DNA of 64,000 nucleotides from Candidatus Gastranaerophilales bacterium. GTDB taxonomy: Bacteria > Cyanobacteriota > Vampirovibrionia > Gastranaerophilales > Gastranaerophilaceae. Under the pieces are notes generated by a model that saw only the letters and a list, made by a program, of their open reading frames with translations, made no database searches and had not been told where the DNA came from. Positions 5,972 to 17,764 of this stretch are shown piece after piece. The DNA lies in NCBI GenBank assembly GCA_947589425.1, contig CANQAV010000001.1, positions 186,001 through 250,000 on the forward strand, in the 5' to 3' direction. The translations under genes were made by a program, and so were the position numbers. Every line of letters starts with the position of its first letter. The first letter of the stretch is position 1.

Positions 5972-6869
5972 ATATATATATATATATATAATACTTTGTG
6001 ATTCCTTTTTTTGTTTTTATTTTAAATACGGGATATTTGTCGAAAAGATAATATATTTGGTCGCTTTGGTCTATTTTAATTGTAAAAGGTCCGAATTTTT
6101 TACCCTTTTTAAAATCCGAATTGTTTCTCGTGCCTCGAAGAGTAAATCTGTGGTGAACTGCAACATCAGGAATGTAAAATACCTTTTTGTTATGCAATCT
6201 GTGTGACAAATAAAAATCGATATCTTCAAACCAAAGAGGATAATTTATATCAAACCCGCCTATTTTTAAAGCTGTTTTTTTATCAGAAAAAACAAAACAC
6301 CCGGGACACGAATCAACTTCCGCAGGATGAGAAGCTATCTCTTGCGCATCATCACGCATTTTGTATTTCGTCGACCATTTTCTTTTTCCGACCGGCTCTG
6401 CAATTTCTTGTGTTTTATCATGCGCACCCTCGGGACAGATTTGGCAAGAACCCGCAAGAATATCATCATAATCCGTAGTTATCTTAGCTGTTATAGCGCC
6501 TATTTTATCAGGAGCAACACTATATAATTCCAAAAACTTTTCAACGGGGCTTTTTGTTTCAATTGTTGCATCACCGTCACATCGAATAATAAAATCTCCT
6601 TTTGAGGCTTCCAAACATTTATTAAGAGCATTAACAATACCTTTATGGGGCTCTTTAATAACTGTCATGTTCTTAATTTTACCGCTTTGTGCCCATTTAT
6701 CAAGTTTTGATACACCCTCGTCCAAAGAGCCGTCATCACACACTATAAACTCATAATTTTCATAAGTATTGTTTTCTATAAATTTCTCAAAAAATAAATC
6801 AATAATATGCTCATTATTATAATTTGGTAATATAAAAGATATCATTGGATTTTTTGGAACATTGTTCAT
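5901..6869 (-). CDS. GT2-family glycosyltransferase, C-terminus altered by an AT-repeat frameshift
   Basis: About 322 aa from ATG 6869, preceded by AAGGAGAT; the ATG overlaps the FkbM stop as ATGA. MISFILPNYNNEHII and FIVCDDGSLDEG are the nucleotide-binding start of a GT-A fold. RCDGDATIE supplies the DxD, and LWFEDIDFYLSHRL the acceptor-side ED motif. After KGITKYYIYIYIY, encoded by the AT run, the frame continues for only about 28 residues that look non-native. The conserved end lies in another frame (5732-5971). The present product is therefore probably inactive or altered, and the gene is a strong candidate for on/off switching. Acceptor and sugar are unknown. Confidence 0.85.
   Translation of the reverse strand: MNNVPKNPMISFILPNYNNEHIIDLFFEKFIENNTYENYEFIVCDDGSLDEGVSKLDKWAQSGKIKNMTVIKEPHKGIVNALNKCLEASKGDFIIRCDGDATIETKSPVEKFLELYSVAPDKIGAITAKITTDYDDILAGSCQICPEGAHDKTQEIAEPVGKRKWSTKYKMRDDAQEIASHPAEVDSCPGCFVFSDKKTALKIGGFDINYPLWFEDIDFYLSHRLHNKKVFYIPDVAVHHRFTLRGTRNNSDFKKGKKFGPFTIKIDQSDQIYYLFDKYPVFKIKTKKGITKYYIYIYIYGIWFLAEFFHKKEYLEKRYNAA
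5970..5990. repeat. (AT)10 dinucleotide run inside the GT2 gene
   Basis: 21 bases of perfect alternating AT encode the YIYIYIY stretch. The tract length is 0 modulo 3. A length of 2 modulo 3 (gain of one unit or loss of two) would restore the downstream frame. A loss of one unit would give a stop a few codons later. Confidence 0.95.
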
Positions 6870-7909
6870 GTTATCTCCTTTGGCTCGCAAATTAACAGAG
6901 TCTCCAACAGTATCTGTCCGTCACGAGGTTTCACTATTCTAAAATTATAACCCAAACATAAAGATTCAATCAAAGGTTTAATATCAAAGAAATCAGAACA
7001 TGTGTGATAAATGCTTATAAGCATTGAAGGTCTTTGGGTTTTAATTGTATTAATTGCACCTTTGAGAAAATTTTGTTCAAAGCCCTCTAAATCTGTTTTA
7101 ATAAGACCTACATTTAATTTATTTTCCTCAACAAATTTATCAAGAGTTGTAATTTTACATTTCTGTTTTTGCCTGTTTGGCTTATCAGTCATAAATCCGC
7201 TTGAAGAATCGTCAACATAAAGTTCAATATCTTCTTCTTTGTCGCCCAAACCAAAGTTAAGCGGGATGATATTTTGTTTTTTGTTAAGTCCGATAGTTTT
7301 GAGTAATTTTTCATAATTCAATTTAACAGGCTCAAACGAATATACCTTCTTTTGAGTATAATCAGACAGTATTACCGCACTGTCTCCGATAAATGCTCCG
7401 GCATCAATAATGTCTTTGTTTTTGAAATAATCTGTGTTCAGGGTGTCAATAGAGTGTTTATCCTGAAAAACACACAATTCAAAATGATTTTCGCACAGAA
7501 GATATTTATTGTACGCCCAGCATTCATCATCAATTTTACAAATATTTTTTACCATATTTTTTCTGTTTGAATAAATAAGCTTAACCTCATTCTCGTCAAA
7601 TATTTCAACATAATCTTTTTTTGCGCCGTCGACTTTTTGCATTGCACCGATAATTGCATTAACGGTTTTAATGGAATCTTCATCCAAATTTTTGATTAAC
7701 TTTGTATATTTTTCTCTTAAATCAATTTTGTTGAGTTCGTCCAAAAATTTTTTTATAAAGAGCTTATATTCCCCCCCCCCTCGGAAATAGAGATAATCCG
7801 ACATGATATCTTTTTTATATCTGAAATTTATTGTTATAAACAATATTTTAATTGTTATATATTTATTATCGTTTTTTACGGAAAATATATTTTCAAAAAA
7901 ATTTTTCAT
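6866..7909 (-). CDS. FkbM-family methyltransferase with poly-G tract near its start
   Basis: 347 aa. Residues 1-35 (with KYITIKILFITINFRYKK) resemble the short tail found on glycosyltransferases of the same operon rather than a methyltransferase. Then comes YFRGGGEYKL, in which GGG is encoded by ten G. The FkbM domain follows: DIIDAGAFIGDSAVIL is the SAM-binding loop, VYSFEPVKLNYEKL and IKTDLEGFEQ are later motifs. Such enzymes usually O-methylate sugars. With ten G the frame is open; nine or eleven give a stop within ten codons. It lies between the GT8 and GT2 genes. The target is unknown. Confidence 0.88.
   Translation of the reverse strand: MKNFFENIFSVKNDNKYITIKILFITINFRYKKDIMSDYLYFRGGGEYKLFIKKFLDELNKIDLREKYTKLIKNLDEDSIKTVNAIIGAMQKVDGAKKDYVEIFDENEVKLIYSNRKNMVKNICKIDDECWAYNKYLLCENHFELCVFQDKHSIDTLNTDYFKNKDIIDAGAFIGDSAVILSDYTQKKVYSFEPVKLNYEKLLKTIGLNKKQNIIPLNFGLGDKEEDIELYVDDSSSGFMTDKPNRQKQKCKITTLDKFVEENKLNVGLIKTDLEGFEQNFLKGAINTIKTQRPSMLISIYHTCSDFFDIKPLIESLCLGYNFRIVKPRDGQILLETLLICEPKEIT
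7771..7787 (-). repeat. Phase-variation element, G10 copy in FkbM
   Basis: On the minus strand: TTTCCGA followed by ten G, then AATATAAGC. It is read as F-R-G-G-G. One of four copies of the same TTCCGA-G(n) element in this window. Confidence 0.85.
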
Positions 7910-7998: not shown

Positions 7999-9228
7999 CT
8001 ACCCCCCCCCCTCGGAATTTATTTTAAATCTCATTCTTATTCCAAAAACAGTCAAAACATTATAGTGCTTATTTCCAACCTTTAATTTTTTAATTGAGAA
8101 TATTTTTTCTTTGGTATTGTCATAAAAATCATCCTGCCAAACATAATGAGGACGCATTTTTTTCATTAAAAAATCAAGCTTTATTTCTTCAAAAAATGAA
8201 GTTAAGCTTGCATAAAACCAAAAATCTTCAAAATTTACCATATAAGGCATGGGGTATAAAATATACGAGGCAAACCGCCAAGGCTTTTCCGAACCTGCAA
8301 AGTGTCTGAATATAATTCCTTTTTCCAATGAAATATCATTTTCAAAATTGTTTTTAACAAGATTGTCTTCAAACTCTTTCAAAAGTTTTGTATCTTTTTT
8401 TGATAAGCTGTATCTGTTATTTTGAAGCCAATTAAAACTGTGGCGAAGATTGCAATTAAATCTTGCTTCAAGTCTTTTATAACCGCCGTTTAAATAAGCA
8501 AATCTGTTAAGCATTACCTCATCGGGGGCGCACTGAATCTTGATTTCATTAAGAATATTAAGCAAATTATTTATAACATCATCATTTGTACCGATTTTTT
8601 CTCTCCATTTTTCATAGTCTATGAGCATCACGCCCGAATTAAAATATTGATAATCATTAGAAGCTTTAATTACTTTATTGGCATCTTTATAATCTCTTGC
8701 AAAATACAACGGACAGGCGCCTATAATATTTCCTTCAAGGTCAATATCCCATAATTCTTTAACATCGCCAATAGCAATTAAATCAACATCCAAATAAATC
8801 GCTCTTTTAACTTCCGGTGCAAGCAAAGGGAATAAAAGGCGGTTGCATGTACTTAAAGACACATAATAATACGGGGACAATTTTATTTTCGAAAAATATT
8901 CCTTTGCGCAGCAATCAATGAATTTAACGCTGTAATGATTTGTAACGGACGAAAATGTATCTTTAATCAGTTTTTTGTTATTATCCGTAATTCCGTCACA
9001 CAATATATAAAATTCAACAAAAGAATGTGTGTTATATAAAACACTTACTCCCGTTGTTGCAATAAATTTTGCATATCCGTTATCACCCGATAAAATAACG
9101 GGGATTTTATCGCCGCAATCAAGCTTTTCATCTCTTTTTTGAGGAGTTTTAAGAGAATTAATCACGCCCCAAAAACAGGTCAACTCTTTTAAGTTTTGAA
9201 AATCTTCATCTTTAACAAGTTTCAACAT
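7999..9228 (-). CDS. GT8-family glycosyltransferase, second paralogue
   Basis: 409 aa from ATG 9228; this start matches the paralogue's N-terminus and has AGGAG upstream, while an upstream start at 9276 would add unrelated residues. KIPVILSGDNGYAKF opens the GT-A domain. AIYLDVDLIAIGDVKELW holds the DxD metal motif. FRHFAGSEKPW near the C-terminus is the conserved HxxGxxKPW. It ends in the tail KLKVGNKHYNVLTVFGIRMR, then SEGGG and a stop encoded by the G10 tract. The donor is likely a UDP-sugar; the specificity is unknown. Confidence 0.92.
   Translation of the reverse strand: MLKLVKDEDFQNLKELTCFWGVINSLKTPQKRDEKLDCGDKIPVILSGDNGYAKFIATTGVSVLYNTHSFVEFYILCDGITDNNKKLIKDTFSSVTNHYSVKFIDCCAKEYFSKIKLSPYYYVSLSTCNRLLFPLLAPEVKRAIYLDVDLIAIGDVKELWDIDLEGNIIGACPLYFARDYKDANKVIKASNDYQYFNSGVMLIDYEKWREKIGTNDDVINNLLNILNEIKIQCAPDEVMLNRFAYLNGGYKRLEARFNCNLRHSFNWLQNNRYSLSKKDTKLLKEFEDNLVKNNFENDISLEKGIIFRHFAGSEKPWRFASYILYPMPYMVNFEDFWFYASLTSFFEEIKLDFLMKKMRPHYVWQDDFYDNTKEKIFSIKKLKVGNKHYNVLTVFGIRMRFKINSEGGG
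8002..8017 (-). repeat. Phase-variation element, G10 copy at the GT8 3' end
   Basis: Minus strand TTCCGA plus ten G, then TAG. It is read S-E-G-G-G-stop. Nine G would open a frame ending at a TAG four bases before the FkbM ATG. Eight G would stop after a few codons. Confidence 0.85.
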
Positions 9229-10553
9229 TATATAATAACTCCTTTTAAATCGGCTAAAACAAAAATCATCCTGCAAGTACTACAGATGTTCTGCGCATAA
9301 TTGAATATAAATCTGATAAGCTTAACCCCCCCCTCGGAATTTGTTTTAAATCTCATTCTTATTCCAAAGATAGTCAGAACGCTATAGTGCTTATTTCCAA
9401 CCTTTAATTTTTTAATTGAGAATATTTTTTCTTTGGTACTGTCATAAAAATCATCCTGCCATTCGTAATACGGATGCATCTTTGCGTTAACAAAATTGTC
9501 TTTTATTTCTTCATAAAAAGAAGTCAAGCTTGCATAAAACCAGAAATCACTAAAATTTGATATGTAAGGAAATTCATAATAACTTTTGAGCGCCGTAGTG
9601 TTCCAAGGCTTTTCCGTACCGGCGTAATGTCTGAATATAATTCCTTTATCAATATTTATTTTCTTTTCAAAGTTATTTGCTTTTATATTCGTCTCAACGC
9701 TTTTGAACATTTTTGCTTCTTTTTTGTTTAATTTTAATTTATTGTTTTTAAACCAGCTGTAGCAATCATAAACACAGGTATTAAACCTCATCTCAAGTTT
9801 TCTGTAACCGCCCGTTAAAAATGCAAAACGATTAAGGACAACTTCATCCGGTGTATGAGTAATTTTTAAATCATTGATGATATCAAGCAAATTATCAATT
9901 ATTTGTCGATTTGTACCGATTTTTTCTCTCCATTTTTCATAGTCTATGAGCATCACGCCCGAATTAAAATATTGATAATCATTAGGAGCCTTGATTATTT
10001 TATTGGCATCATTTGCTTTCAATGTAATATAAGAAGGGCTCACTGCAAATATATTTCCTTCAAGGTCAATATCCCATAATTCTTTAACATCGCCAATCGC
10101 AATTAAATCAACATCCAAATAAATCGCTCTTTTAACTTCCGGTGCAAGCAAAGGAAATAAAAGGCGGTTGCATGTGCTTAGTCTTACATGATAAAAAGGG
10201 CTTAATTTAATTTTTGAAAAATATTCTTTAGAATTACATTCTATAAACTTAATTGAATAGTGAGAAGTTATATTCGAAAAAGTTTCTTCAATCATTGTTT
10301 TGTGAGCTTGCGAAATTTCCTCGCTTAATATATAAAATTCAATAAAAGAATGTGTGTTATATAAAACACTTGCTCCGGTCACTGCAATAAATTTTGCATA
10401 GTTATCATCAGCAGATAAAATAACGGGGATTTTATCTTCGCAATCAAGCTTTTCATCTCTTTTTTGAGGAGTTTTAAGAGAATTAATCACGCCCCAAAAA
10501 CAGGTCAACTCTTTTAAATTTTGAAAATCTTCAAATTTTATCTTATTTTTCAT
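9228..10553 (-). CDS. GT8-family glycosyltransferase, first paralogue, read-through tail
   Basis: 441 aa with CAGGAGTG upstream of the ATG. It has the same domain plan as its neighbour: KIPVILSADDNYAKF, DVD at about 147-149 in AIYLDVDLIAIG, and FRHYAGTEKPW. Much of the pair is almost identical at DNA level (for example FQNLKELTCFWGVINSLKTP), so they arose by tandem duplication. After SEGG, encoded by the G8 tract, the frame continues 31 residues as a hydrophobic tail (with CRMIFVLADLKGVII) and its TAA overlaps the next ATG. A nine-G version would stop at once. Confidence 0.92.
   Translation of the reverse strand: MKNKIKFEDFQNLKELTCFWGVINSLKTPQKRDEKLDCEDKIPVILSADDNYAKFIAVTGASVLYNTHSFIEFYILSEEISQAHKTMIEETFSNITSHYSIKFIECNSKEYFSKIKLSPFYHVRLSTCNRLLFPLLAPEVKRAIYLDVDLIAIGDVKELWDIDLEGNIFAVSPSYITLKANDANKIIKAPNDYQYFNSGVMLIDYEKWREKIGTNRQIIDNLLDIINDLKITHTPDEVVLNRFAFLTGGYRKLEMRFNTCVYDCYSWFKNNKLKLNKKEAKMFKSVETNIKANNFEKKINIDKGIIFRHYAGTEKPWNTTALKSYYEFPYISNFSDFWFYASLTSFYEEIKDNFVNAKMHPYYEWQDDFYDSTKEKIFSIKKLKVGNKHYSVLTIFGIRMRFKTNSEGGVKLIRFIFNYAQNICSTCRMIFVLADLKGVII
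9326..9339 (-). repeat. Phase-variation element, G8 copy at the GT8 3' end
   Basis: Minus strand TTCCGA plus eight G, then TTAAGC. It is read S-E-G-G-V. Nine G would create a TAA directly after the tract; ten G would end about 24 codons later in another frame. Confidence 0.85.
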
Positions 10554-17143: not shown

Positions 17144-17528
17144 GCGACCTTGTGCGGTAACGCACTAACCCTCACCCTTATCAAGGGGGAATATAATCAA
17201 GAATAAAAAAAGACTTTCATCAAGAAAGTCTTTTTTGGTGGGCCATCTTGGACTCGAACCCCAAGGGAGCCTTGGCGACCTTGTGCGGTAACGCACTAAC
17301 CCTCACCCTTATCAAGGGGGGGGAATATAAACAAGAATAAAAAAAGACTTTCATCAAGAAAGTCTTTTTTGGTGGGCCATCTTGGACTCGAACCCCAAGG
17401 GAGCCTTGGCGACCTTGTGCGGTAACGCACTAACCCTCACCCTTATCAAGGGGGGGGAATATAAACAAGAATAAAAAAAGACTTTCATCAAGAAAGTCTT
17501 TTTTGGTGGGCCATCTTGGACTCGAACC
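17144..17528. repeat. Tandem array of tRNA 3' half plus terminator, 131-134 bp units
   Basis: Nearly three copies begin at 17144, 17275 and 17409. Each holds GCGACCTTGTGCGG, CTCACCCTTATCAAGG with a G run, AATATAA, the terminator hairpin GACTTTC-ATCAA-GAAAGTC, and the last 24 bases of tRNA-Ile including CCA. Only the third copy joins a complete tRNA. The G run is 5, 8 and 8 long in successive copies. Confidence 0.92.
17473..17503 (-). terminator. Rho-independent terminator of tRNA-Ile
   Basis: Stem GACTTTC/GAAAGTC extended by A/T pairs, loop ATCAA, and a T run on the minus strand, directly after the encoded CCA. Two further copies lie downstream in the tandem array. Confidence 0.88.
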
Positions 17529-17580
17529 AAGGACCTCACCCTTATCAGGGGTGCGCTCTAGCCGCCTGAGCTAATAGCCC
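17504..17580 (-). tRNA. tRNA-Ile (anticodon GAT)
   Basis: 77 nt including an encoded CCA. The acceptor stem GGGCTAT/ATGGCCC has one G-U pair, with discriminator A. The D arm is GCTCAGGCGGCTAGAGC. The anticodon stem CACCC/GGGTG encloses CTGATAA with anticodon GAT. The T arm is CTTGG-TTCGAGT-CCAAG. It is not within an rRNA operon. Partial copies of its 3' half lie downstream and of its 5' part upstream. Confidence 0.96.
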
Positions 17581-17764
17581 GCAACAAACCTATTTAATTT
17601 TCAATCAATATTTGCTGACCTTAGCCCGTTCATCTGTAACCCCACCCGGAGCCGCCTGAGCTAATAGCCCGCAACAAACCTATTTAATTTTCAATCAATA
17701 TTTGCTGACCTTAGCCCGTTCATCTGTAACCCCACCCGGAGCCGCCTGAGCTAATAACCTGCAA
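17561..17764. repeat. Tandem copies of the tRNA-Ile 5' end plus leader, 90-bp units
   Basis: GCCGCCTGAGCTAATAGCCC (the tRNA 5' end in antisense) recurs at 17561, 17651 and, slightly altered, 17741. Two identical 70-bp leaders (ACAAACCTATTTAATTTTCA through CCACCCGGA) lie between. The copies at 17651 and 17741 are truncated tRNA 5' ends and cannot be functional tRNAs. Confidence 0.9.

Follow-up and report, generated by a model that had tools for sequence, protein, structure and literature searches.

Phase variation that alters the C-terminus of a protein has been described in Helicobacter canadensis, where it was found in 8 of 29 tract-bearing genes (Snyder 2010, PMC2823697); the poly-G tracts concerned lie at the 3' end of genes clustered with surface-glycan functions, leave the domain intact and vary in length in read data, and their frames differ by a few to about 20 residues, with one case merging with the next gene. 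A 3' tract likewise switches C-termini in Neisseria gonorrhoeae (Churchward 2016, PMC5320596) and in kdtA (NMB0014) of N. meningitidis (PMC5953494), and in some of the Neisseria cases one frame joins the downstream gene (PMC5320596, PMC5953494). Neisseria also supplies LgtC, a GT8 galactosyltransferase (PDB: 1g9r and 1ga8) that is active without its C-terminal 25 residues, which are predicted to lie on the membrane (PMC9952996), and whose gene carries a variable G tract listed as translational, that is on/off (PMC5320596). A different use of such a repeat is known from the tlpB-hp0102 pair of H. pylori: here the G-run stands in the 5' UTR, is read by the sRNA RepG and lies upstream of a co-transcribed glycosyltransferase gene, which was proved to be independent of upstream translation (PMC8295292).

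We analyzed a 64,000-nucleotide stretch of DNA (the window) from a genome of Candidatus Gastranaerophilales, uncultured gut relatives of cyanobacteria. On its minus strand an operon runs in the order glf, galE, a GT2 gene, two tandem GT8 genes (GT8-1 and GT8-2), an FkbM methyltransferase, a further GT2, a UDP-glucuronate-decarboxylase-like epimerase and UDP-glucose dehydrogenase; the GT8s, the first GT2 and FkbM were named by profile searches and the others by sequence appearance. The features at issue are the following:

9228..10553, minus strand: GT8-1, a glycosyltransferase family 8 gene of 441 aa in the assembled G8 register, with its stop TAA at 9228-9230
9334..9430, minus strand: basic C-terminal tail box of GT8-1, EKIFSIKKLKVGNKHYSVLTIFGIRMRFKTNSE, directly before the G8 tract
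9326..9333, minus strand (C8 on the plus strand): G8 tract after ...FKTNSE of GT8-1
9229..9325, minus strand: 97-nt spacer between GT8-1 and GT8-2, a 32-aa extension in G8/G11 and otherwise untranslated or read in part (19 aa, G10)
9226..9246, minus strand: Shine-Dalgarno AAAAGGAG and ATG of GT8-2, with the TAATG overlap
7999..9228, minus strand: GT8-2, the tandem paralogue of GT8-1, 409 aa
8002..8011, minus strand: G10 tract of GT8-2, at the same codon as the GT8-1 tract, with an immediate TAG in the assembled register
6866..7909, minus strand: FkbM methyltransferase gene, next in the operon after GT8-2
7771..7780, minus strand: G10 tract early in the FkbM gene (codon ~44), an ordinary on/off position, ON in the assembly

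An earlier note on this DNA had called both genes GT8, and the identification holds: PF01501 matches GT8-1 with an E-value of 3.7e-30 (105.8 bits) and GT8-2 with 1.8e-30 (106.8 bits), above the curated cut-off of 24.3 bits. The two proteins are 71% identical, and their GT8 domain resembles LgtC (1g9r; E-value 2.6e-17), the closest solved GT8, with which they share both family membership by sequence and a basic (amphipathic) C-terminal tail. In both, this tail takes the form of a box, EKIFSIKKLKVGNKHYxVLTxFGIRMRFKxNSEGG, which is strongly basic (net charge about +6 in GT8-1) and upon whose closing SEGG the G run falls, as G8 in GT8-1 and G10 in GT8-2. Unlike the tract of lgtC, which is classed as on/off, that of GT8-1 thus follows the tail.

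The G8 tract and its three registers are real, nearly as first described. Translated from the ATG at 10553 with the eight G of the assembly, GT8-1 is 441 aa long and the last A of its TAA is also the first base of the GT8-2 ATG at 9228; nine G give 410 aa, with a TAA directly after the tract, and ten G give 429 aa, with a TGA 60 nt past it, leaving 32, 1 and 20 residues after SEGG, respectively. The earlier note was therefore right on the stop/start overlap and on the immediate stop with nine G, whereas its extension of 31 residues with eight G is actually one of 32; with ten G another frame is indeed entered, which ends the stated 24 or so codons on only if one counts from the E of SEGG, and otherwise 19 codons plus the stop past the tract. 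The tract itself occupies codons 407-409 of 441, in the 3' part of the coding region. The PF01501 domain spans residues 44-320 and the registers diverge only past residue 409; both the domain and the basic tail box are intact in all three. GT8-2 as assembled, with G10, meets its stop immediately; with G9 or G12 it would gain 28 residues and end 4 nt short of the FkbM ATG. An in-frame fusion of the two GT8 genes arises in none of the registers, since a TAA directly follows the tract in the frame of the downstream ATG. In this the locus departs from the H. canadensis gene that merges with its neighbor (PMC2823697), in that the stop overlaps the next start without fusion, and from the Neisseria cases in which one frame joins the downstream gene (PMC5320596, PMC5953494), in that its open frame ends on the following ATG.

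These registers, the tract at the same codon of both paralogues, the strong ribosome-binding site downstream and the genome-wide set of tracts described below lead us to favor, with a probability of about 0.55, the interpretation that the G8 run is a C-terminal (3') phase-variation tract, such that catalytic domain and tail are always made and only the tip differs. Slippage in replication would change the frame in which everything past the tail box's last codon is read, and the tip would be a hydrophobic, basic extension of 32 residues with G8, a single glycine with G9 and a stretch of 20 residues with G10; the corresponding tract of GT8-2 would permit several combinations of the two enzymes' tips within the operon, with GT8-2 translation set mainly by its own strong ribosome-binding site. 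The run thus probably lets cells make GT8-1 with three different tail ends; tract length presumably varies in cells, and the tip may matter, for instance through membrane contact or stability. That the tract sets which C-terminus is made, as first proposed, follows directly from the sequence and fits known C-terminal phase variation, and on these grounds this part of the original interpretation is supported. As a type of switch it is already known, and the GT8-1 tract would be a further, new case. The closest likeness is to H. canadensis (PMC2823697), with which it shares the poly-G at the 3' end, the intact domain, the clustering with surface-glycan genes and tails of similar size per frame; however, length variation there was seen in reads, and the tract lengths given here come from a single assembly.

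The overlapping TAATG invites another explanation, namely that ribosomes reading the G8 or G11 register terminate on it and reinitiate on GT8-2, so that the tract would adjust the proportion of GT8-1 to GT8-2, and that with G9 or G10 they fall off 94 or 38 nt earlier and yield less GT8-2. Only in the G8/G11 register does the stop lie within about 10 nt of the downstream start, the paralogue junction has one register (G9) that stops 4 nt before the next ATG, and there are tight junctions elsewhere in the operon, such as the 13 nt between GT2 and GT8-1. Moreover, in a pool of comparable junctions that was defined after seeing the window pair and includes it, some frame stops at the next start in 6 of 22, against 1.5 expected (P 0.0008). 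Several of these six, however, are genuine protein ends, for example that of a DNA-methyltransferase-like gene in a same-genus genome (L140), and the excess is inflated; shuffled spacers also show, by chance, a frame open to the next ATG at a rate of 8-22% per junction. As regards GT8-2 itself, a dependence on coupling through a weak or masked ribosome-binding site is not what we find: its Shine-Dalgarno, 10 nt before the ATG, scores -8.2 kcal/mol and ranks about 8th of the 49 starts in the window, and the spacer region folds no better than shuffles, being less folded than most of them (z +1.4), and has no sequestering hairpin. With a strong site of its own and no fold, GT8-2 should not need read-through for its translation, and any effect of the tract on it would be secondary to that site. 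A published classification of coupling looks for conserved co-location of stop and start and allows for a weak downstream site (PMC3711429), in contrast to the strong one seen here, and the independence of the downstream gene in tlpB-hp0102 (PMC8295292) also speaks against coupling. We therefore consider it improbable that coupling is what the tract is for, and the claim that the tract sets whether ribosomes reach the next start is unsupported as its main effect. No tract-switched coupling was found in the literature searched, which consisted of open-licence papers only. The mild excess in the pooled junctions keeps coupling alive as a possible secondary effect, so that this part of the original interpretation is weakly supported and possible, though other than the best explanation. 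A combined version, in which poly-G length puts the GT8-1 stop on the paralogue's start and slippage sets the enzyme ratio and the first tail at once, strikes us as slightly more doubtful still.

The same H. pylori pair suggests that the G-run might act on the RNA, as a small-RNA target or leader element about 97 nt upstream of GT8-2, given that repeat length there grades the co-transcribed glycosyltransferase (PMC8295292) and that the distance of the tract from the ribosome-binding site would permit it. The H. pylori repeat, however, lies in a 5' UTR and the GT8-1 tract at the 3' end of a coding region, and no promoter-like or terminator-like site around the junction rises above shuffles, so that a promoter in the GT8-1/GT8-2 spacer was rejected. 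We regard an action at the RNA level as very improbable.

Comparison of the paralogues bears on whether the tips are under selection at all. A blastn alignment of GT8-1 with GT8-2 covers the final ~122 nt up to and including the tract, at 94% DNA identity, and ends there; this block could be explained by gene conversion that had one edge at the tract, or alternatively by selection on the tail. Beyond it the two spacers remain alignable (1 in 1000 shuffles scores as well), with frame-breaking indels and no common reading frame, and the open-frame extension peptides resemble each other no more than shuffled ones do (P 0.61 and 0.10 for the frames tested), on which ground a conserved protein-level extension was rejected. 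With these gaps and shuffle-like peptides, the spacer's evolution resembles that of a leader more than that of coding sequence, and the tips, being unconserved between the paralogues, may have no function. An alternative is that the tract is a near-neutral relic: gene conversion between the paralogues, or duplication, would have brought it in together with the tail segment, to a place where frameshifts do little harm, so that it is tolerated rather than selected. The high identity of the copies up to the tract and its collapse thereafter, the divergence of the spacers by frame-breaking indels and the rarity of the arrangement are all in keeping with such an origin: a search for the tail-then-tract pattern in 288 genomes of the family returned only the window pair and one match judged to be chance. 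Against it, pure runs of G8 and G10 in both copies, in a window of 34% GC, are unlikely to persist by drift, and other 3'-end tracts recur in two related species. We accordingly hold the relic to be unlikely, while giving it some weight.

Searches for relatives of the junction returned little: no orthologous GT8-1/GT8-2 junction was found in related genomes, the paralogue was the only convincing match to the DNA of tail, tract and spacer within the genus, and the same GT8 was not found in named genomes. By arginyl-tRNA synthetase the nearest named relatives are Candidatus Gastranaerophilales from ruminant and other sources (67-79% identical). A 50% identical GT8 from another genome (G027) ends ahead of the tail box. 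The tail motif strings found no match in a literature search, and structure prediction from the two GT8 paralogues failed (pLDDT 32).

Further glycosyltransferases have related boxes of the form IFSxK(x)n HKVxxxFGxRFxFK, some of them C-terminally and others N-terminally, and the neighboring FkbM protein has a related IFSVKN box at its N-terminus; the FkbM N-terminus ahead of the G10 tract at 7771-7780 resembles a transplanted tail box. A second GT8 pair in the source genome (G000:C6:41993-43006, L048) has tracts of G9 and G8 that lie 27-28 nt ahead of a basic IFSxK tail box, the G9 gene being assembled with the box in frame and the G8 gene with it out of frame; in the registers other than G9 a different sequence takes the place of the box. 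A gene of the same-genus genome G011 (C11, L132/L261), GT10 fucosyltransferase-like by sequence appearance, has a G9 tract 43 nt before a tail box that only G10 would add. In these three further genes the tract stands 27-43 nt before the box, and one register therefore adds or removes the tail; the order in the window pair, box and then tract, is the reverse. Among 146 genomes searched for the tract-then-tail pattern, a true tail box was found only in the C6 pair. The tail box may bind the membrane, and the position of a G-tract on one or the other side of a removable basic tail suggests that these bacteria vary the seating of glycosyltransferases on the membrane, beyond on/off switching.

The G8 tract of GT8-1 lies beyond chance expectation, as overlapping G7 matches in the window number 17, where dinucleotide shuffles give 1.5 +/- 1.7, and the 1.87 Mb genome holds 68 overlapping G8 matches, which make up 36 distinct G/C tracts of 8 or more. 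By position the 36 comprise 15 in-gene (on/off) tracts, 8 at the 3' end of a long ORF, 2 right at the start and 11 in other places. Many stand at surface-glycan genes; the genes that hold or adjoin tracts include GT8, GT90, GT2, DUF4422, polysialyltransferase-like, pyruvyltransferase, AlgX-like acetyltransferase, TPP enzyme, polysaccharide deacetylase and methyltransferase genes. Across 27 genomes of the genus (G000-G026), tracts of at least 9 G number ~20-30 each in the source genome, G011 and G016, a few in six others and none in 18. Loss of MutS as the cause of this richness was ruled out, since all 27 genomes searched possess a MutS1-like gene; an in-frame TAG in the mutS of the source genome proved to be the gene's own end. 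These observations would extend C-terminal phase variation and a large set of poly-G contingency loci to Gastranaerophilales; the literature searched contained no paper with both 'Gastranaerophilales' and 'phase variation'.

Some other tracts were noted in passing. At 17185-17586 of the window, three tandem 134-nt copies with tRNA 3' fragments and terminator-like hairpins lie beside a tRNA-Ile (17504-17580), and two of them carry a G8 tract, in the place of which a related upstream copy has G5. Two large proteins of the source genome (1142 and >850 aa; G000:C5:78852 and C5:82626, L047) share an identical N-terminus, and in each a G11 tract immediately precedes a signal-peptide-like start. In G011, three tandem FkbM-like genes (C7:52677-54956, L130) each have a G9 at the same codon, ~60 residues from the end. 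Lastly, the two DNA-methyltransferase-like gene pieces of L140 (G016 C1:30198-31989) carry G10 tracts and are both ON, and phase-variable modification is possible there.
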